Source: Streptomyces sp. NRRL F-5630
Lineage (GTDB): Bacteria; Actinomycetota; Actinomycetes; Streptomycetales; Streptomycetaceae
NCBI RefSeq assembly: GCF_000719475.1
Contig: NZ_JOGO01000003.1
Location: 221,193 to 285,192, forward strand
Reading direction: 5' to 3'
Length of the DNA: 64,000 nt
The position numbers and the translations under genes were made by a program. Shown one piece after another: positions 39,004 to 47,771 of the stretch. Every line of letters begins with the position of its first letter. Position 1 is the first letter of the stretch. The notes beneath the pieces are model-generated. The model made no database searches. It saw nothing but the letters and a program-made list of their open reading frames with translations, and was not told the origin of the DNA.

Positions 39004-39864
39004 TCACCCCACCCCGAGCCGCTCGGCGAGCGCCTTCGTGCGGCGGGCGACCGCGACGAGCGCGGCGTCCACGAAGCGGCCGTCCGGGAGCGCGAACGCG
39101 CCGCCGTCCCGTGCCGCCGCGCTCAGCACCTCGTCCGCCGCGGCGACCTCCGCCGCGCCGGGGCGCCACGCGTGCTCGATGACCGCGAGCTGACGGGGAT
39201 GGATCGCGGCGCGCCCGAAGAAGCCGACGTCCCTGCCGTGGCGGCACGAGGCCGCGAGACCCTCCTCGTCCCGCACGTCCGGGTACACCGACTGCGGCGG
39301 TGGCGCGAGCCCCGCCGCGCCCGCCGCCAGGACGACACGCCCCCGCGCGTGGTCGAGCCCCGCGTCCCCGCGCACCCCGAGCGCCGCCCGCAGGTCCGCC
39401 TCACCGAGCGCCACGCCCCGCACCGCCGGGTGCGCCGTCGCGACCTCGAAGGCCCGCTCGACGCCGAGCGGGCACTCCAGGACCGGGTACAGCTCGGGGA
39501 CCGGCGCTCCGCCGCAGGCCACCGCCGCGCGCCGCACGTCCTCCGCGCCCCGCGACTTGGGCAGCCGCAGGCCCGACAGGTGCGGCAGCCCGACGAGCGC
39601 CGCCACGTCGTGCGCGCCCCAGGGACCGTCCAGATGGTTGACGCGTACGTGCACGGGGACCGGGACCGGGGACGAGAGGAGTTCGACGACGGCGGACCGC
39701 GCGTACTCCTTGCCGTCGGGCGCCACCGCGTCCTCCAGGTCCACGAGCACCACGTCGGCACCCGCCGAGAGTGCCTTCTGGACCCGCGCGGGACGGTCGC
39801 CCGGCACGTACAGCCAGGTCAGCGGAGTGCCGGACAGATCGTTCTCCCTCTCCTCGCCCGTCAT
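39004..39864 (-). CDS. CitE-like HpcH/HpaI aldolase/lyase family protein
   Basis: This 286-residue TIM-barrel protein of the CitE/HpcH family is the last gene of the seven-gene operon. It begins with the typical TWLYVPGDRPARVQKALSAG and has the metal-site VVLVDLEDAV, LRLPKSRGAEDV, a Glu in VLECPLGVERA, and the C-terminal FGRAAIHPRQLAVIE. Relatives cleave citryl-, malyl- or citramalyl-CoA, or act as thioesterases. Its pairing with a CoA-transferase suggests a CoA-ester substrate. No hydratase is encoded here, so a full citramalate-type route is not evident. ATG 39864 overlaps the CoA-transferase stop. Confidence 0.88.
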   Translation of the reverse strand: MTGEERENDLSGTPLTWLYVPGDRPARVQKALSAGADVVLVDLEDAVAPDGKEYARSAVVELLSSPVPVPVHVRVNHLDGPWGAHDVAALVGLPHLSGLRLPKSRGAEDVRRAAVACGGAPVPELYPVLECPLGVERAFEVATAHPAVRGVALGEADLRAALGVRGDAGLDHARGRVVLAAGAAGLAPPPQSVYPDVRDEEGLAASCRHGRDVGFFGRAAIHPRQLAVIEHAWRPGAAEVAAADEVLSAAARDGGAFALPDGRFVDAALVAVARRTKALAERLGVG

Positions 39865-41183
39865 ACCGCCCCCGCCGCCCGCAGCCGCGCGATGTCCCCG
39901 GCGCCGAAGCCCGCCTCACCGAGCACCGCGTCCGTGTCCGCGCCGTGCGGCCTGCCCGTCCAGCGGATGTGCCCCGGCGTCTCCGAGAGCCGGAAGAGCA
40001 CGTTCTGCATCCGCAGGCGTCCCAGCTCGGGATCGTCGAACGCGGGCAGCGAGCCGAGCGCCGCGTACTGCGGATCGGCCATGATGTCGGCGATGTCCTG
40101 CACGGGCGCGATCGCCGCATCCGCCTCCTCGAAGGCGTCCACGACCTCCTTGCGCTCGCGCGCCGCGATCCAGGAGCCCACCGCCTCGTCGAGCACGTCC
40201 GCGTGCGCCGCGCGCCCCGCGCCGCTCGCGAACCACGCCTCGTCGATCAGCTCGGGGCGCCCCACGAGCCGCATGACCCGCTCGGCGACCGACTGCGCCG
40301 AGGTCGAGACCGCGACCCAGCGGCCGTCCGCCGTGCGGTACGTGTTGCGCGGCGCGTTGTTCGCGGAGCGGTTGCCGGTGCGCGGCTGGACGTAGCCGAG
40401 CTGGTCGTACCAGAGGGGCTGCGGGCCGAGCACGGTGAGGATCGGCTCGATGATCGCCAGGTCGACGACCTGCCCGCGCCCCGTCCGCTCCCGCCCCGCG
40501 AGCGCCGTCATGACCGCGTACGCCGTCGCGAGGGCCGCGATCGAGTCGGCGAGCCCGAACGGCGGCAGCACGGGGGGACCGTCCGGCTCCCCGGTGATCG
40601 CGGCGAATCCGCTCATCGCCTCCGCGAGCGTCCCGAAGCCGGGGCGCTTCGCGTACGGGCCGAACTGCCCGAAACCCGTCACACGGGCGAGGACGAGCCG
40701 CGGGTTCACCTCGCTCAGCTCCGCCCAGCCCAGCCCCCAGCGCTCCAGCGTCCCCGGGCGGAAGTTCTCGATCACGACATCCGCGTCCGCGACGAGCCGC
40801 AGCAGCACCTCACGGCCCTCGGGCCGCGACAGGTTCGCCGTCGCGTTCCGCTTCCCGCGCCCGAGCAGCTTCCACCACAGCCCCACGCCGTCCTTGCCCG
40901 GCCCGTGCCCCCGTGAGGGATCGGGACGCGTGGGGTGCTCGATCTTGACGACGTCGGCGCCGAAGTCGGCGAGCATCGTCGCGGCGAGCGGCCCGGCGAA
41001 GAGCGTCGCGAGATCGAGCACGCGAATGCCGTGCAGGGGGCCCGGCTCCTCGGGGGCCTCGGGCGTGTCGGGCTCGTACGGGCTCAGGGCCGGGCCTGAG
41101 GCGCCGGACCCCCACCTGCTCCCATCCGGCTCCCGCTCGTTCCCGTCGGGCTCCCGCCCACCCTCGCAGGGTTCCCGCGTCAC
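39861..41183 (-). CDS. CaiB/BaiF (family III) CoA-transferase
   Basis: This 440-residue family III CoA-transferase carries IRVLDLATLFAGPLAATMLA, FGADVVKIEHP, a Gly-rich turn, VVIENFRPGTLERWGLGW and GRGQVVDLAIIEPIL, where the Asp corresponds to the catalytic nucleophile of formyl-CoA transferase. A Glu/Pro/Gly-rich head (about 1-50) is non-conserved; Gly-Ser-Glu repeats there (GGREPDGNEREPDGSR) look disordered. GTG 41183 overlaps the kinase stop (GTGA). Donor and acceptor are unknown. Confidence 0.9.
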   Translation of the reverse strand: MTREPCEGGREPDGNEREPDGSRWGSGASGPALSPYEPDTPEAPEEPGPLHGIRVLDLATLFAGPLAATMLADFGADVVKIEHPTRPDPSRGHGPGKDGVGLWWKLLGRGKRNATANLSRPEGREVLLRLVADADVVIENFRPGTLERWGLGWAELSEVNPRLVLARVTGFGQFGPYAKRPGFGTLAEAMSGFAAITGEPDGPPVLPPFGLADSIAALATAYAVMTALAGRERTGRGQVVDLAIIEPILTVLGPQPLWYDQLGYVQPRTGNRSANNAPRNTYRTADGRWVAVSTSAQSVAERVMRLVGRPELIDEAWFASGAGRAAHADVLDEAVGSWIAARERKEVVDAFEEADAAIAPVQDIADIMADPQYAALGSLPAFDDPELGRLRMQNVLFRLSETPGHIRWTGRPHGADTDAVLGEAGFGAGDIARLRAAGAV

Positions 41184-42079
41184 GCCACCACCCCCGCGCT
41201 CGCGTCGATCTCGGACCGGTGCGGCATCGAGGGCGCCGCGCCCGCGCGCTGCACCGAGAGCGCCGCCGCCGTGCCCGCCCACGCGAGCGCGTCGGGCATC
41301 GCCCGCCCCTCGCCGAGCGCGACCGCGAGGGCGCCGACGAAGGTGTCTCCCGCCGCCGTCGTGTCCACCGGGTCCACCTCGGGCGCCGGGACGACGAGTT
41401 GTTCCGCGCCTCGCGCGGCGTACAGGCAGCCGCGCGCGCCGAGCGTCACGACTACCTCGGGCACGCGGTCGAGCAGGACGCGCGCGGCCTCGGCCGGGTC
41501 GCGGATGCCGGTCAGGGCGGCGGCCTCGTGCTCGTTGGGGACGAGGAGGTCGGTCGCGGCGAGCAGCCCGGGGGGCAGGGTCTGCGCGGGCGCGGGCGTG
41601 AGGACCGTGCGCACGCCGTGGCGGCGCGCGGCCTCGGCGCCGGCGAGGACCGCGCCGAGCGGGATCTCCAGTTGCAGGAGCAGCGTGTCGGCCGCGGCGA
41701 TGAGGTGCTCGTCGCCGGGCGCGAGCCCCGTGAGGCTCCCGTTGGCTCCGGGGACGACGACGATCGCATTGCCCCCTTCGTCGTCCACGACGATGTGCGC
41801 GGTGCCGCTCGGGCCGGGGACGAGGCGGAGCAGTTCGGTGTCCACCCCGGCGTCGGCGAGTTCCTGCCGCAGCCGGGTGCCGAAGGCGTCCTCGCCGACG
41901 GCGCCGATCATCGCGACGCTCCCGCCCGCGCGCGCGGCGGCGATGGCCTGGTTGGCGCCCTTGCCGCCGGGATGGGTGCGGAAACTGTGCCCGGTGACGG
42001 TCTCGCCGCGTTCGGGGGCGCGGGCGACGTGGGCGACGAGGTCCATGTTCGTGCTGCCGAGGACCACGATGTGGCTCAT
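41180..42079 (-). CDS. rbsK: Ribokinase / PfkB-family sugar kinase
   Basis: This 299-residue PfkB kinase has the ribokinase pattern: VVLGSTNMDLVAHVARAPERGETV, then the sugar-binding HPGGKGANQAIAAARAGG and the ATP/anion-hole DTTAAGDTFVGALA with catalytic Asp. Ribokinase makes ribose-5-phosphate; a nucleoside or other pentose is possible. Located directly downstream of four ADP-ribosylglycohydrolase-type genes with 4-nt overlap, it most simply phosphorylates the ribose-type product of those hydrolases. E. coli yegU-yegV is a known parallel pairing of an ADPRH-like and a PfkB gene. Confidence 0.9.
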   Translation of the reverse strand: MSHIVVLGSTNMDLVAHVARAPERGETVTGHSFRTHPGGKGANQAIAAARAGGSVAMIGAVGEDAFGTRLRQELADAGVDTELLRLVPGPSGTAHIVVDDEGGNAIVVVPGANGSLTGLAPGDEHLIAAADTLLLQLEIPLGAVLAGAEAARRHGVRTVLTPAPAQTLPPGLLAATDLLVPNEHEAAALTGIRDPAEAARVLLDRVPEVVVTLGARGCLYAARGAEQLVVPAPEVDPVDTTAAGDTFVGALAVALGEGRAMPDALAWAGTAAALSVQRAGAAPSMPHRSEIDASAGVVA

Positions 42080-43614
42080 GGAGTGGGGCTCCTGGTGGCG
42101 GTCGGGGGCGGCGCCTCGCCGTCCGGGGCGGACTCGTCCCGGACGAGGACGCGCTCCCGGGCGGTGGGGCGGCGGGCGGGCTGGTCGTGGGCGGACCCGG
42201 GGGCGAGGGCGAGTTCCGTGGTGAGCCGGGCGAGCGTGCCGTAGTCCGCGCCGGTCTCGCCGGGATCGTTCCAGCTCCCCTTGACCGCTGTCCTCAATCG
42301 GTTCCCCAGCGGAGCCGTCCACACCCCGGGGACCCCGTGGAGCACTCCTGCGACGGACCCGGCCGTCGCTCCGTTCGAATCCGTGTCCCAGCCGCCGGAG
42401 ACGGCACGGGTCACCGCGGCGGTGAAGAAGTCCTCCTCCGCGCCCGCCTCGACCGCGAGCGCCGCGTGCGTGAGCGCGGCGGCCAGGAGCGCCGCGTTGG
42501 GGACGACGTGCACCCAGTGCGTGCCCCGGTGCGCGGCGTGCAGCGCGTCGACGACGGTGGCGAAGTCCTCGTGCGTACGGGCGAGGGCGACCGCCTCGCG
42601 GACGGCGCGCGCGAGGCGGGACCCCCGCGGCACGACGCGCAGGCCCGTCGCGAGGCAGTGGTGCACGTCCCCGCCGTGCGCGGTCGCCTCCGCGAGCACG
42701 GCCGCCGCGAACATCGCCCCGTACACCCCGTTGCGCGTGTGGCTCAGCACCGCGTCCCGCCACGCCTGCTCCGCCGCGCCCGCCGGGTCGCCCGGGTGCG
42801 TCCAGCCGTGCACGTCGGCCCTGATCAGGGCCCCGATCCACTCGCGGAAGGGGTTGCGGTGCCGGGCGGTCTCCGGCGGTTCGATGCCGCGCAGGAGGTT
42901 CGCGTACGCGACCCGCTCGGCCGTGAAGACCTTTCCGGCGGGCAACTGCTCCAGCCACAGCGCCGCGAGATCGGCCGTCGTGAAGCCCCGCCCGTGCCGC
43001 AGCAGCAGCTCGACGGTCAGCACGGGGTGGTCGAGGTCGTCGTCCTCGGGCGTCCCCGCGAGGTTCTCGGCGAGGCAACTGCCCGCGCTGCGCCGGTTCC
43101 ACGGGTACGCGGCGAGCACGTCCGCCGGGACGCCGCGCGCCGTGAACCACGTGCGCAGCGGCCAGTTCCCCGCCGCCCGCGCGAGCGCCCTGATGCCGTC
43201 GAGGGGAAGCTTCTCGACCGGCTTGCCCAGCACGCACCCGGCCGCGCGCCCGCGCCAGGCGGCTTCGAGCCGCCGCTCCAGGGCCACCGGATCGCCGTCG
43301 TACGCGCGCACGCCGGGCCACTCGGGGCACGCCGCGACGATCTCGCCGAACTCCGTCGGCTCAGCGCCGTCCGCCGCCTCGGGAACCTCCGCGATCCGGG
43401 CCAGCAACTCCTCGGCGAGCGCGCGCAGCGCAGGCGGTACGGGGGCCGGGGACGCCCCCGCCCGCACGGGTGCCGCCAGGCCGCCCGCCGCGAACCAGCG
43501 CGCCGCGATCCCCGCGACCTCGCGCCCCTCCTCGCCCGCCTGCCGCACCTCGTGCCCGATCAGGTCCTCCGGCTGCACCCACGTGAGGCGCAGCCCCGCG
43601 CCCGTACCGCTCAC
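42076..43614 (-). CDS. ADP-ribosylglycohydrolase family protein, copy nearest the kinase
   Basis: This 512-residue, largest and most divergent copy has about 110 N-terminal residues before the fold begins at LERRLEAAWRGRAAGCVLGKPVE. Metal-site motifs are TPEDDDLDHPVLTVELLL (Asp190-192) and GGWDTDSNGATAGSVAG (Asp410/412), the DxD-type C-terminal signature, so the di-metal site looks intact. The EDDDL form places it in a subgroup distinct from the TDDT type of its neighbours. The substrate could be an ADP-ribose adduct or another N-riboside. GTG 43614 overlaps the preceding stop. Confidence 0.85.
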   Translation of the reverse strand: MSGTGAGLRLTWVQPEDLIGHEVRQAGEEGREVAGIAARWFAAGGLAAPVRAGASPAPVPPALRALAEELLARIAEVPEAADGAEPTEFGEIVAACPEWPGVRAYDGDPVALERRLEAAWRGRAAGCVLGKPVEKLPLDGIRALARAAGNWPLRTWFTARGVPADVLAAYPWNRRSAGSCLAENLAGTPEDDDLDHPVLTVELLLRHGRGFTTADLAALWLEQLPAGKVFTAERVAYANLLRGIEPPETARHRNPFREWIGALIRADVHGWTHPGDPAGAAEQAWRDAVLSHTRNGVYGAMFAAAVLAEATAHGGDVHHCLATGLRVVPRGSRLARAVREAVALARTHEDFATVVDALHAAHRGTHWVHVVPNAALLAAALTHAALAVEAGAEEDFFTAAVTRAVSGGWDTDSNGATAGSVAGVLHGVPGVWTAPLGNRLRTAVKGSWNDPGETGADYGTLARLTTELALAPGSAHDQPARRPTARERVLVRDESAPDGEAPPPTATRSPTP

Positions 43615-44810
43615 GCGCGATCCCCCGCTTCCAGGGCCGCGAACGCCGCCTCGTGCGCGCGCCGCCGCGCCACGTCCCTGCCGTGGACCTCCCGCGCCAC
43701 CTCGGTGAGGGCGGCCGCCGCGCCGCGCACGTCGAGGCGGCTCGCGCGGCTCACCTCCTCCGCCCACTCCGCCGGGATCACCGCCGCGCCGCCGAGCGCT
43801 CCCGCGAGTGCCCCGGCCATCGTCGCGATCGAGTCGCAGTCCCTGCCGTAGTTCACCGCGCCGAGGATGGTGTCCCTGCCCCGCCCCGCGCACACGAGCA
43901 ACATGCCGAGCGCGATGGGCAGTTCCTCGATCGCGTGCAGCCGCGAGGGCCGCCGGGCGCCGAGCGAGGGTGCCCGGTACTCCTCGCCGACCGTGTCGTA
44001 CGGCGCGATCGCCGCGCGCAACGCGGCCTGCGCCGCCTCGGGTTCGCCGTAGCGGACGGCGACCTCGCAGACCGCCTCGATCGCCGCGCGCGTGCCGTCC
44101 TTCGCGAGCCGCAGACACGCCTCCACGACGTCCCCGGGAGAGGCCCCCGGCCGGCACGCCGCGGCGACGGCCGCCGCGAAGACCGCGGCCGCCTCCCGCC
44201 CGTACGAGGACTGGTGCGCGCCCGCGATCTCGGCGGCCTCCGCGTAAGCCCCCTCCGGGTCACCGGCGTTGACGAGCCCGACCGGGGCCATGTACATCGC
44301 CGCGCCGCAGTTCACGACGTTCCCGACGCCCGCCTCGCGCGGGTCGGCGTGCGCGTAGTGCAGCCGCGTCACGAGCCACTTCTCGGCGAGGAAGACGCGG
44401 TGCAGCGGCAGCGCCTCGGCCTCCAGCTCGGGAATCCACCGCGGGTTCTCGGTGAGTTCGGGCACGAGATGGGCGGCGATCGCGTGCGCGTCCAGGTGGT
44501 CGCGGACGGTGCCGTAGACGCGGATCAGCGCGTGCGTCATGAGGGTGTCGTCGGTGACGTGCCCGTCGCCCTTGTGGTACGGGGCCAAGGGGCGCGCCGT
44601 GCGCCACTCCTCACCCGCCCACGGACCGACGATGCCCGTCACCCTGCCGCCGTGCCGCGCCACGATCTGCTCCGGGCTGTATCCCTCCACGGGCCCGCCG
44701 AGCGCGTCGCCCACGGCGGCGCCGAGCAGCGCGCCGAGCACGCGGTCGGCGAGTCCCGGGCCCGTCGCCGGGACGTCTCGGGCAGGGGGGAGCGGTGAGA
44801 CTGCGGTCAT
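43611..44810 (-). CDS. ADP-ribosylglycohydrolase family protein, canonical TDDT type
   Basis: This 399-residue protein has all DraG/ARH landmarks: GALLGAAVGDALGGPVE (25-42), the metal motif VTDDTLMTHALIRVY (TDDT 86-89) and the second metal motif NYGRDCDSIATMAGALAG (GRDCDS 322-327). It should bind two divalent cations and hydrolyse a ribosyl N- or O-glycosidic bond. A segment near 190-215 (EIAGAHQSSYGREAAAVFA) is typical. ATG 44810 overlaps the upstream stop (ATGA). Confidence 0.9.
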   Translation of the reverse strand: MTAVSPLPPARDVPATGPGLADRVLGALLGAAVGDALGGPVEGYSPEQIVARHGGRVTGIVGPWAGEEWRTARPLAPYHKGDGHVTDDTLMTHALIRVYGTVRDHLDAHAIAAHLVPELTENPRWIPELEAEALPLHRVFLAEKWLVTRLHYAHADPREAGVGNVVNCGAAMYMAPVGLVNAGDPEGAYAEAAEIAGAHQSSYGREAAAVFAAAVAAACRPGASPGDVVEACLRLAKDGTRAAIEAVCEVAVRYGEPEAAQAALRAAIAPYDTVGEEYRAPSLGARRPSRLHAIEELPIALGMLLVCAGRGRDTILGAVNYGRDCDSIATMAGALAGALGGAAVIPAEWAEEVSRASRLDVRGAAAALTEVAREVHGRDVARRRAHEAAFAALEAGDRA

Positions 44811-46129
44811 GAGGCGGTGTCCTTTCCCGCGTCCGTGGGTGGTGCGGTGGTCTTCTCGTGGAGAGGGAGGCGCGCGGGCTCGCGGAGGGTGCCCCGCGCG
44901 GGTTCCCGTGGCGGGTCCCGCAGGGGGACGAGGGCGTCGAGGCGTGCGGCGAGCGCGAGGAGGTCGGTGCCCGCGAGCCGGGGCACCGCGCAGCCGCTGA
45001 GCCACCGGCAGGCCGCGCGCCACGGCGCGGGCACCACGGCGCCGAGCGCCCCGGTGAGCGCGCCGGTCAGCGCGGGCGCCGAGTCGGCGACGCGGGCGAG
45101 GCACGCGGCGGCGGGCAGCGCGGCCTCGGCACGGCCGCGCGCGGCGAGCGCCAGCGCCAGCGCGACGGGCACGGTCTCGGCGGCGGCGACGCCGTAGCTG
45201 TAGACGTGGTCCACGATCTCGTGTTCCAGGACCGGGACGAGCGCGAAGGCGGCGGTGCCCGGGTCGGGGCCGGGCCCGTCCCCGCCGTGGCTCCCGCCCG
45301 TGCCCTCGCCGTCACCGACGGCCCGGCGCGCGTGCGCGACCGCCTCGCGCGTGGCCCTCCCGATCGCCGTGTCCTCGGGCAGTTCGGCGAGCGCGGCGCC
45401 GACCGCGCCCTCCGCGTCCGCGCCGCCGAGTCCCGCCGCGACCGCCGCGGCGACGGCCCGCGCGCCGAGCACCCCGTCCCCGTCCTGCGTGTAGCGCGCG
45501 TCGTACTCGGCGAGCGCGGCGGCCGCGCGCGGCTCCCCGGGGCGCAGCGTCGCGAGGACGGCGGCGCGCACGCACGCCGCGTCGTCGAAGTAGTGCGGGT
45601 TGTCGTGCCCGCAGGCCGGGGGCGCGAGCCCGGCGGCGAGGTTCGCGAGCGAGGTCCGCACCGAGATCCGGGCGCGGAAGGCGGGCGGCGGCTCGGCGGG
45701 CGCGCCGCCCGCCCGTTCGGCGGGCGGGGCGGTGAGCTGGGCCGCGAGCGCCGCCCAGTGCCGGTCGAGCGCCTCGCGTACCCCGCTCTCGCCGGGCGTC
45801 ACGGCGTCGAGCAGCGCGTATGCCGTCAGCGCCGCCCATTCCGCGTCGTCCGAGGGCCCGAGCCGCAGCGGTCCGGGGGCTTGGTTGAGCGCGACGGGCA
45901 CCGGGAGCGTGGTCACGCCGCCCTGCTCGGCGAAGAGGTCGAGTTCGCGTGCGAGCCGCCGCGTCCAGGCGGGCATCCCGTGCGCCCGGTGCCGCCCCGC
46001 GGGCCACCCCGCCGCGTCCCCGGCGGCGATCCCGAGCAGCACGCGGGCGGCGGGCGAGCCGGGATCGACGACGGGGTGCGGGCGGGCGGGCGCGAGGGGA
46101 ACGGTCGCGGACTCTGCGGGGGCGCTCAT
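44807..46129 (-). CDS. ADP-ribosylglycohydrolase-like protein with degenerate metal site
   Basis: This 440-residue homolog starts LLGIAAGDAAGWPAG (31-45). The TDDT motif has become SDDA (93-96, in GPSDDAEWAALTAY), and the GRDxD[ST] motif has become ARVADS (345-350), replacing the first Asp with Val. With two of the metal-site positions altered, hydrolytic activity is doubtful; it may be a regulatory or structural partner of the other three. The fold is otherwise full length. It overlaps both neighbours by 4 nt and so is kept in frame with the operon. Confidence 0.78.
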   Translation of the reverse strand: MSAPAESATVPLAPARPHPVVDPGSPAARVLLGIAAGDAAGWPAGRHRAHGMPAWTRRLARELDLFAEQGGVTTLPVPVALNQAPGPLRLGPSDDAEWAALTAYALLDAVTPGESGVREALDRHWAALAAQLTAPPAERAGGAPAEPPPAFRARISVRTSLANLAAGLAPPACGHDNPHYFDDAACVRAAVLATLRPGEPRAAAALAEYDARYTQDGDGVLGARAVAAAVAAGLGGADAEGAVGAALAELPEDTAIGRATREAVAHARRAVGDGEGTGGSHGGDGPGPDPGTAAFALVPVLEHEIVDHVYSYGVAAAETVPVALALALAARGRAEAALPAAACLARVADSAPALTGALTGALGAVVPAPWRAACRWLSGCAVPRLAGTDLLALAARLDALVPLRDPPREPARGTLREPARLPLHEKTTAPPTDAGKDTAS

Positions 46130-47265
46130 GGGGTGGCTCCGGAGGAGGGAGGGAACGGGAGGGGAGGTCCTCCGGCCGGGGGCGCGGCGGCGGGGCCCGG
46201 GACGGGACGGCCGGGCACGGCCGCCGTCGGCGGGGCCGTGGCGGCCTCGCCCGCGGCGTGCGCGGGGGAGGCGCTGTCGTCCGCCGTCCGCCGGGCCGTG
46301 ACGAGCTGGTCGGCCAGGTCGAGGACGTGACGGCCCGCCATCGCGGGGAGGCAGGAGCCGCGCGCGGGACCGATGCGGCGCGCCCACTCCGGGGGGATCG
46401 CCCCGACCCCGCCCGCCGCGCCCGCGAGCGCCCCGGCGATCGCGGCGGTCGTGTCCGCGTCGCGCCCCATGTTCACCGCGGCGAGCACTGCCGTGCGGAA
46501 CGCGCCGCCCGCGAGCGCGTATGCGCCGAGCGCGAGTCCCACCGCCTCCGGCGCGAGGTCCGTCCACGGGTAGGCGCGCACCACGACGGCGGCCCGCAGC
46601 GCCCGTTCCCCCTCGCGCGCCGCCACGAGCGCACGGCTCAGGGACCGGTACGTCCACGAATCGGCCGGTACGGAGGCGAGCGCCGCCTCCGTCACCTCGC
46701 CGGGACCCGCCCCCGTCATCGCCACGGCGACCGCGGCGGCGACGGCCTGCCCGCCGTGGATGCCCTCGCCCTCGTGGCTGACCGCGCCGTCCACGGCGAC
46801 GAGCCGCGCCGCCTCGGCCGGGTCGCCCGCCGCGTACACCCCGAAGGGCGCGGCGCGCATCGCGAGGCCGTCGCTCCACGGGTGCCGGTGCTGCGCGCTC
46901 GCCGGGGCACCGAGCCCGCGCCGCAGGTTCTCGACCGTGCCGCGCTCGCTGAACCCGGCCCCGCGGAAGGCGCCCGCGTCGATGTCGGTGAGCCACTCGC
47001 GCCAGGCCGCCTCCGCGTGCGCCACGGTGAGCCCGGCCCCGTGCCTCACGAGCAGCAGGCCCGAGAACAGGGCGTACTCGGTGTCGTCCGTCCCGGCGGG
47101 CCGCTCCGCCACGTACCCCGTGATCCGCCCCCAGCGCCGTCTGATCTCGCTCGGCTTGAGGTTCTCGGCGGGCGCGCCGAGCGCGTCCCCGACCGCGAGC
47201 CCGAGGAGCGCGCCCCGCGCCCGTGCCTCCACCCCGGCCGGTGCCGTGCTCACCGTGGTGGCCAT
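46126..47265 (-). CDS. ADP-ribosylglycohydrolase family protein, first gene of operon
   Basis: This 379-residue canonical copy leads the operon. Motifs are GALLGLAVGDALGAPAENL (18-36), TDDT at 59-62 in AGTDDTEYALFSG, and NMGRDADTTAAIAGALAGA with GRDADT at 267-272. All expected metal ligands are present. ATG 47265 has an outstanding AGGAGGT ribosome-binding site 6 nt upstream; the longer open frame reaching 47463 is therefore rejected. The C-terminal 55 residues are Pro/Ala-rich and probably disordered. Confidence 0.9.
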   Translation of the reverse strand: MATTVSTAPAGVEARARGALLGLAVGDALGAPAENLKPSEIRRRWGRITGYVAERPAGTDDTEYALFSGLLLVRHGAGLTVAHAEAAWREWLTDIDAGAFRGAGFSERGTVENLRRGLGAPASAQHRHPWSDGLAMRAAPFGVYAAGDPAEAARLVAVDGAVSHEGEGIHGGQAVAAAVAVAMTGAGPGEVTEAALASVPADSWTYRSLSRALVAAREGERALRAAVVVRAYPWTDLAPEAVGLALGAYALAGGAFRTAVLAAVNMGRDADTTAAIAGALAGAAGGVGAIPPEWARRIGPARGSCLPAMAGRHVLDLADQLVTARRTADDSASPAHAAGEAATAPPTAAVPGRPVPGPAAAPPAGGPPLPFPPSSGATP

Positions 47266-47771
47266 CGGGTACCTCCTCGGGCGGCCTGCGGCGGGACCCT
47301 CGTTCCGCCCTCTGCCCGCTGATCCTGCGCCATGCGGCGCGCTGTTCGGACGACGTTCGAGGCGAAGGGGGAGGGGCGCGGGAGCGGAATCACTCGTTCG
47401 GCGGTCGCGGGAGCAGGGGGCGGCAGGAGGCGGGCGCGCGGCGCGGCACGGTGCGCCCCTCACGCGCCGGGATCACCCGTACGAGGGCTCCGTGCGGGCG
47501 CCGGGTGAGGTGCCATGCGGGCGCCGGGTGAGGCGCCGGGCGAGCAGTCGCGCGAGAGGGAGGGCGAGCTGCCGCGCGAGGCGCCCAGGAGCGGCTGCCC
47601 GAGGCGCCCCGCGCGGACCACGGCGGGTCCCCCTGAGGCGCCGCGCGAGCGGCCCCGCGAGCCCCCGCCCGCCCCCGGTAAGTACGGCCTTCCTTGCTGG
47701 CAGCGGCCGTTTTCCGCGCGTATTTTCGAGCGTCCCGCTCCACTCGTCCGACCCGCGAAGGACCCCCGGCC
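47266..47771. other. 506-bp divergent region between the ADPRH operon and the VIT-type gene
   Basis: No gene is seen. It contains a 22-bp direct repeat (47493-47514 and 47516-47537) and five copies of GAGG(C/T)GCC. It ends in a less GC-rich stretch (47681-47735) that probably carries the promoter of the plus-strand gene. The ADPRH side shows GTTCG three times (47367-47406), two of them spaced 12 nt apart. Confidence 0.5.
47493..47642. repeat. Direct repeat and GAGGYGCC boxes
   Basis: A 22-bp unit beginning TGCGGGCGCCGGGTGAGG is present twice with a 23-bp period. GAGG(C/T)GCC starts at 47507, 47530, 47578, 47601 and 47635; the 23-nt spacing recurs between the first two and the third and fourth. 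Confidence 0.6.

Follow-up and report, generated by a model that had tools for sequence, protein, structure and literature searches.

Proteins of the ADP-ribosylglycohydrolase (ADPRH) fold occur in several described systems that resemble, each in part, a seven-gene operon on the minus strand of contig NZ_JOGO01000003.1 of Streptomyces sp. NRRL F-5630 (positions 221,193 to 285,192; this stretch of 64,000 nucleotides is called the window, and plain coordinates refer to it). Kinases and an ADPRH are found together in the rus locus of Bacteroides thetaiotaomicron, a Gram-negative polysaccharide utilization locus with RusR and RusT. To our knowledge, rus holds neither a set of four ADPRHs nor a CaiB-CitE pair, and the Escherichia coli operon yegTUV is without coenzyme A (CoA) enzymes. 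The itaconate pathway, RipA-RipB-RipC, includes a CoA-transferase and a CitE-type lyase, as does our operon, whose CitE has RipC as its best NCBIfam model; the operon differs in having no hydratase and in a RipC score of 140.7 against a cut-off of 375. In the available part of PMC12596196, rus (BT2803-2809) is a ribose utilization locus, a role that our operon may share. In layout, yegTUV comes closer. According to the accessible portion of PMC10819704, YegT is a predicted nucleoside symporter, YegU a predicted ADPRH, and YegV a putative sugar kinase, with no clear function known. As is predicted for the complete operon described below, yegTUV unites a putative transporter, an ADPRH, and a sugar kinase in one repressed transcript; it differs in its major facilitator superfamily-type transporter, its single ADPRH, and its GntR-family regulator. 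The first-pass annotation of the window had likened the operon to yegU-yegV. The comparison is sound for the layout, whereas the same portion of PMC10819704 proposes a link of yegTUV, part of the GgaR regulon, to glycogen and ADP-glucose rather than ribose.

Our operon encodes four ADPRH-fold proteins (working names A1, A2, A3, and A4), a ribokinase (RbsK), a CoA-transferase (CaiB), and a CitE-like lyase (CitE). In relatives, the unit extends to a LacI-type regulator and a sugar ATP-binding cassette (ABC) importer that are absent from the window. The seven genes probably supply the enzymatic part of an operon for the uptake and breakdown of a glycoconjugate, with a riboside as the likeliest candidate. 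The features are as follows.

46126..47265, minus strand: A1, ADPRH-fold hydrolase, 379 amino acids, motifs PAEN, TDDTE, and GRDADT kept, low-complexity C-terminal tail (open reading frame; PF03747, 193.4 bits; DraG alignment)
44807..46129, minus strand: A2, divergent ADPRH-fold protein, 440 amino acids, metal-site residues lost (PF03747, 104.4 bits; alignments; predicted model)
43611..44810, minus strand: A3, ADPRH-fold hydrolase, 399 amino acids, motifs kept (PF03747; column identity; motif counts)
42076..43614, minus strand: A4, ADPRH-fold hydrolase, 512 amino acids, extra N-terminal helical region of about 100 residues, motifs PVEK, EDDD, and WDTDS (PF03747; motif counts; model)
41180..42079, minus strand: RbsK, ribokinase of the PfkB family, 299 amino acids (Pfam; TIGR02152)
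39861..41183, minus strand: CaiB, family III CoA-transferase, 440 amino acids (Pfam CoA_transf_3; NCBIfam)
39004..39864, minus strand: CitE, CitE/RipC-like acyl-CoA lyase, 286 amino acids (Pfam HpcH_HpaI; NCBIfam; alignment)
47266..47771, no strand: divergent intergenic region between A1 and a VIT-family gene, without a LacI operator (sequence and motif scan)

The seven coupled genes described by the first-pass annotation at 39004-47265 are all there: every frame is open and intact, and the six junctions, read from the first gene to the last, are the 4-nucleotide overlaps ATGA, ATGA, GTGA, ATGA, GTGA, and ATGA. One such overlap is unremarkable, because they are common in the window (15 of the 43 same-strand neighbor pairs in its gene calls); six in succession form its longest run. 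Pfam assigns PF03747 to four of the products and PfkB, CoA_transf_3, and HpcH_HpaI to the others. GAGGAGG lies ahead of the A1 ATG. The C-terminal tail of A1 is proline-rich (46126-46300), and gene calls place A1 and A2 at widely differing distances in different species. An odd tRNA with a four-base anticodon, reported by ARAGORN inside RbsK (41195-41290), was set aside as probably spurious.

How well is this gene set kept? Relatives of A4 are present in 38 of 101 genomes of the family; 27 of them, the window's genome included, have one at least 57% identical, and the other 26 loci make up the family set. The order A1-A2-A3-A4-(RbsK)-CaiB-CitE recurs in 25 of the 26; in the remaining locus, L038, A1 was not seen, and the contig stops 0.8 kb past A2. 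As in the window, gltB/VIT and lgt flank the operon in sixteen family-set loci; in L038 the lgt side is visible, and the remaining nine loci have other surroundings. A broader sample of 80 named loci was chosen for an A2 relative, and the 67 of at least 18 kb served for counting; all records carry Streptomyces in their titles, apart from L118 (Actinobacteria bacterium) and L165 ([Kitasatospora] papulosa). A1, A2, CaiB, and CitE are found in all 67, A3 and A4 in 66, and RbsK in 54, so that conservation of the gene set exceeds chance and RbsK is an optional member of the unit. The first-pass annotation had treated the genes as one unit and had proposed a neighborhood comparison in which rare co-occurrence would count against it; no such rarity was observed. 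In one cut locus, L148, A4 and RbsK each appear twice, possibly through duplication or as an assembly artefact.

The profile of A3 matches 140 of 197 genomes of the order, two of them partially. In a draw across the phylum it matches 10 of 396 at E 1e-40, every one in the window's genus, and for that reason the draw was dropped as a route to wider gene context. The A2 profile, at E 1e-30, matches 62 of 394 genomes of the class, some of these being smaller ADPRH clusters. A search of the protein collection scored 7999 proteins, and 6144 of them match A3 at E 1e-40; the named proteins among the matches listed are ADP-ribosylglycohydrolases or hypothetical proteins, from genera such as Nonomuraea and Streptosporangium.

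A clue to function comes from loci outside the gltB setting. In all nine such loci of the family set, two permeases and a solute-binding protein (SBP), in the order PermF-PermG-SBP, stand immediately ahead of A1 and on its strand. Six of the nine have a LacI-cluster gene ahead of this block; the remaining three are truncated at that point. Pfam, run on one of these loci (L037), returns LacI, two BPD_transp_1, and SBP_bac_1; the nearest NCBIfam model of its LacI is an RbsR, under the cut-off (193.4 versus 382). Among the distant loci, LacI-PermF-PermG-SBP is ahead of the ADPRH genes in 16 of 20. The LacI-importer block is also present in 7 of the 67 named loci (L094, L098, L099, L107, L118, L144, and L150), and L094, L098, L099, and L150 carry it while still lying between gltB and lgt. 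L126 retains LacI alone, which looks like decay.

An operator-like palindrome, in its perfect form CTGTAAACGTTTACAG, is located upstream of LacI. Its core, GNAAACGTTTNC, occurs with at most one mismatch in 28 of 31 LacI upstream regions (mean of 0.2 over 20 shuffles), a count made in the same loci from which the motif was derived, with three mini-cluster loci excluded. The three LacI regions without it (L032, L036, and L042) belong to LacI genes at the ends of fetched stretches. The core is found in none of 39 PermF and none of 37 A1 upstream regions. Because the palindrome is upstream of LacI and of neither PermF nor A1, the arrangement fits one transcript, predicted to run from LacI to CitE in complete loci. 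The marks of a LacI-controlled CUT1 sugar operon, namely LacI, two BPD_transp_1 permeases, and an SBP on the same strand together with an operator, are found together in complete loci of relatives; the window's own locus does not have this combination.

Where, then, is the importer in the window's genome? The window's locus has no importer genes and, in a scan at up to 4 mismatches, no operator. Over the window, the 26 family-set loci, and 6 importer loci, that threshold gave the operator in 4 of 33 (L031, inside A4; L034; L037; and L039), and at up to 2 mismatches it was found in none of 6 whole genomes of the window's genus. This genome does carry close PermF and SBP relatives, on a different contig (C48), where SBP, PermG, and PermF are 71, 82, and 83% identical to their L037 counterparts. 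These genes are at the contig end, and the region ahead of them, where a regulator would sit, falls beyond that contig. Importer relatives occupy a separate locus in six of nine genomes of the genus, this one included. The other five importer loci examined (L188 to L192) have no ADPRH or LacI gene; what is conserved around the importer there is an APH-type phosphotransferase and a glycosyltransferase. Across the 197 genomes of the order, 109 have both A3 and PermF, 31 have A3 only, 9 have PermF only, and 48 have neither (Fisher p about 6e-16, not corrected for relatedness).

The four ADPRH-fold proteins all pass the PF03747 gathering cut-off of 26.2, with 193.4, 104.4, 167.4, and 162 bits for A1 to A4, and are 33 to 41% identical to one another in local alignments. 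A1, A3, and A4 share with DraG, ARH1, and ARH3 not only the fold but the metal-site residues Glu, DDT, and DxD-T/S, with EDDD replacing TDDT in A4. We take these conserved motifs to be those that bind metal in DraG and ARH3. Motifs were counted in 45 A1, 43 A3, and 42 A4 sequences, of which seven A1 and one A3 fall short of the N-terminal motif; DD and DxD are present in 45 of 45 A1 sequences and Glu in 38 of the 38 reaching that region. Mean column identity of A3 is 74% over 12 sequences. The A4 model (mean predicted local distance difference test score [pLDDT], 76.0) is nearest to DraG. Opposite the GAAMR segment of DraG, A1 has GLAMR; in a weak alignment, A3 has GAAMY there, which puts a Tyr at the position of the DraG Arg. 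The operon sets itself apart from DraG, ARH1, and ARH3 by its gene context, by the degeneration of A2, and by scores below the equivalog cut-offs: for dinitro_DRAG (337.05), A1 has 79.1 and A3 47.8 bits; for Tri1 (NF041672; 490), A1 has 44.5 and A3 44.2 bits; A2 and A4 match neither model.

A2 is, to judge from its residues, a degenerate ADPRH. In 39 of 39 sequences at least 45% identical to it, DDA replaces DDT and the first Asp of the C-terminal DxD is V, L, I, or T, while the 32 that reach the Glu region all have no Glu there (A2 and A1 positions were matched by eye; the A2-like proteins of L182, with DDS, and L183, 32% identical, are outside this count). A2 nonetheless keeps a mean column identity of 61% despite its lost metal-site residues. 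Its predicted model (mean pLDDT, 72.8) has a chloroplast motor complex entry, 8xks, as its top match, followed by ARH3 and DraG, with moderate scores.

The kinase, which the first-pass annotation had called a ribokinase, indeed passes the NCBIfam ribokinase model TIGR02152 (319.2 bits; cut-off, 299.65), though it misses another, NF008353 (279.3 versus 341). CitE scores 121.9 against 443.4 for the NCBIfam CitE model. Its residues R74, E130, and D157, invariant in 12 sequences, are presumably the active-site Arg, Glu, and Asp of CitE-type Mg-dependent acyl-CoA lyases. All eight f19 operon loci have a further gene, c8 (638 to 667 amino acids; e.g., L168:3870-5837), inserted between RbsK and CaiB. 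In the three of the eight c8 proteins that were scanned, the C terminus matches FGE-sulfatase and the N terminus is without any Pfam hit up to E 10; by eye, the N terminus resembles a glycosidase barrel.

At the level of sequence, then, the gene set and its order, the linkage to importer and regulator, the operator-like palindrome, and the conserved motifs are established. A salvage or catabolic route is preferred because in many actinobacteria the same genes follow LacI and an ABC importer for sugar, which suggests a nutritional role for the four ADPRH-labeled enzymes instead of one in protein editing. In complete loci, the operon would be under a LacI-type repressor, and a CUT1-type ABC importer would take up the substrate; we infer that the close relative on C48 serves in this genome. 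Metal-dependent A1, A3, and A4 would cleave glycosidic bonds, with A2 as a putative partner or redirected member. Ribose set free in this way would be converted by RbsK to ribose 5-phosphate. The substrate would also have a carboxylic-acid part, which the CoA-transferase would activate, and the resulting 3-hydroxyacyl-CoA would be split by the CitE-like enzyme. We hold ribose as the sugar and the acid step with less confidence than uptake and breakdown in general; the order of steps is likewise a proposal. A bolder proposal, possible but doubtful, is that these actinobacterial ADPRH-fold enzymes are a dedicated glycosidase set, in pairs A1-A2 and A3-A4 with one member redirected or noncatalytic, for an abundant environmental riboside bearing a 3-hydroxy acid that is degraded via CoA; the ADP-ribosyl hydrolase label would then be wrong for the branch and the pathway undescribed. 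The salvage route proposed by the first-pass annotation is partly supported, its ribose and acid-remnant chemistry being conjecture, and the fold it gave for all four ADPRHs holds. It missed the loss of metal-site residues in A2, the importer and regulator of relatives, and the fact that in some loci the ADPRHs have no kinase or CoA enzymes next to them.

Several observations weigh against uptake and breakdown of a riboside. RbsK is missing between A4 and CaiB in 6 of the 26 family-set loci and is absent from 13 of the 67 named loci. Among distant loci, L175 and L178 have no RbsK, and none was seen in L183, whose contig stops 0.9 kb past A2. In L182, from a 1.3-Mb genome, neither A4 nor RbsK was seen alongside. 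A ribokinase relative occurs elsewhere in all eight RbsK-poor genomes tested, 42 to 68% identical to the L177 kinase, a figure obtained without a control set; in one of the genomes examined, G017, a ribokinase relative is on the same contig, just past LacI. PfkB kinases lie within 10 kb of 3 of 31 other ADPRH loci, with about 1 expected, and a general ADPRH-PfkB association was set aside as weak. Neither CaiB nor CitE reaches an NCBIfam equivalog cut-off, and the attempt to deduce the substrate from their family models was dropped on that account. CitE is not beside the operon in L171, nor is either CoA enzyme in L175, L176, and L178 (3 of the 15 distant loci that are uncut in that region). 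Finally, the importer is often at a locus of its own, and a close PermF relative is missing from 31 of the 140 genomes with A3, for which a simple import story is weakened.

These exceptions feed two other explanations. CaiB and CitE might serve a separate acid pathway that merely shares a transcript with a sugar pathway of ADPRHs, kinase, and importer, as the three distant loci just named and the smaller ADPRH-ABC clusters without CoA enzymes (L173, L180, and L181) would allow. We think this rather unlikely, since all 67 named loci, the 13 without RbsK included, have both CoA enzymes together with the ADPRHs, and the two are beside them even in the small genome of L182. Alternatively, in most Streptomyces the operon may now salvage an endogenous ribosylated metabolite, such as damaged products of nicotinamide adenine dinucleotide, the importer having been lost or reassigned. 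Retention of a PermF relative in 109 of the 140 genomes, and of the complete operon in some Streptomyces, makes this unlikely, although the 31 genomes without one and the missing operator in the six whole genomes speak for it.

Could the ADPRHs instead strip ADP-ribose from modified proteins, nucleic acids, or antibiotics, with the kinase recycling ribose? Streptomyces coelicolor bears on this question. The available part of PMC5087735 counts seven DraG homologues there, SCO2028-SCO2030 among them, and reads the many ARH homologues as a sign of lively ADP-ribosylation metabolism; that of PMC9411070 counts eight, SCO2028-SCO2031 among them, and these consecutive tags figure in the two as uncharacterized DraG or DraG/ARH homologues. 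In S. violaceoruber (L120), the order is VIT-A1-A2-A3-A4-CaiB-CitE-Lgt. The four consecutive ARH tags and this layout suggest that SCO2028-SCO2031 correspond to A1-A4. Relatives listed as putative ADP-ribosyl hydrolases, the metal-site motifs of A1, A3, and A4, the likeness of the A2 and A4 models to ARH3 and DraG, and the GLAMR-GAAMR alignment all agree with such removal, as does the activity of SCO5809, an ARH3 homologue of S. coelicolor, on phosphate-end ADP-ribosyl RNA (PMC11833690, available part). Even so, we judge it improbable given the linkage to LacI and a sugar importer, the DraG and Tri1 cut-offs not reached, the Tyr of A3 in the weak alignment, and the absence of PADLOC matches. 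In addition, SCO2028 and SCO2030 are inactive on U-alpha-ADPr, the sole substrate given for them in the available part of PMC13036486. That inactivity and the gene context also fail to bear out a signaling ADP-ribose cycle, which the first-pass annotation had offered as an alternative. Toxin immunity, in which the ADPRHs would work as in ART-ARH pairs and shield the cell from ADP-ribosylating effectors, is hardly credible: Tri1-type immunity proteins do share the fold, and 6dre and 8za7 are among the structural matches of the A2 model, but A1 and A3 fall far below the NF041672 cut-off, the neighbor genes are catabolic, and none of the seven proteins matches a PADLOC model, which led us to drop a defense reading.

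Uptake and breakdown of a riboside would have consequences beyond this locus. If SCO2028-SCO2031, four of the eight homologues in PMC9411070 (available part), serve a nutrient pathway, the argument for lively ADP-ribosylation weakens. The presence of the operon in most Streptomyces examined, by the A3 count above, points to a common substrate, one that is unnamed in the literature found; among the papers listed in a search by title and abstract opening, with subscription journals largely uncovered, none describes the seven-gene set. The importer's binding protein offers a direct handle for finding that substrate.

Variant loci show how the unit is assembled. L182 reads alpha/beta-hydrolase-LacI-PermF-PermG-SBP-A3-A1-A2-CaiB-CitE (names given by eye; A2 is also matched by the A2 profile). 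In L183, LacI-PermF-PermG-SBP is followed by A3-A4-A1-A2, with CaiB-CitE ahead of LacI; therefore, the pairs A1-A2 and A3-A4 stay together. In the smaller clusters, a LacI-ABC block, made up of LacI, SBP, and two permeases, is oriented divergently to two ADPRH genes.

L173:1878-9503, L180:8960-15358, and L181:8733-15139: smaller ADPRH-ABC clusters

The L173 cluster also carries an A4-like ADPRH and a ribokinase-like gene, and at L173:13014-19496 a weak 651-amino-acid ADPRH has as its neighbors a BPD_transp_2 permease and another ribokinase-like gene.

In the intergenic region between the VIT gene and A1, the sole element to stand out by footprinting is on the VIT side. A ten-mer, CCTTGCTGGC, is common to 15 of 17 such regions, the window's (47266-47771) among them, and some have a AGGTTAGCC-type word near it; to us the pair is reminiscent of the actinobacterial iron box. 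A second class of A4-like ADPRHs, with about 45% identity to A4, is found at L044:6618-9036 and in L043-L054. A NUDIX-cluster gene adjoins it or is one gene off in 10 of 12 loci (Pfam was run on L044 only), and a SIR2-cluster gene is nearby in 8 of 12; this class may be a real ADP-ribose module.

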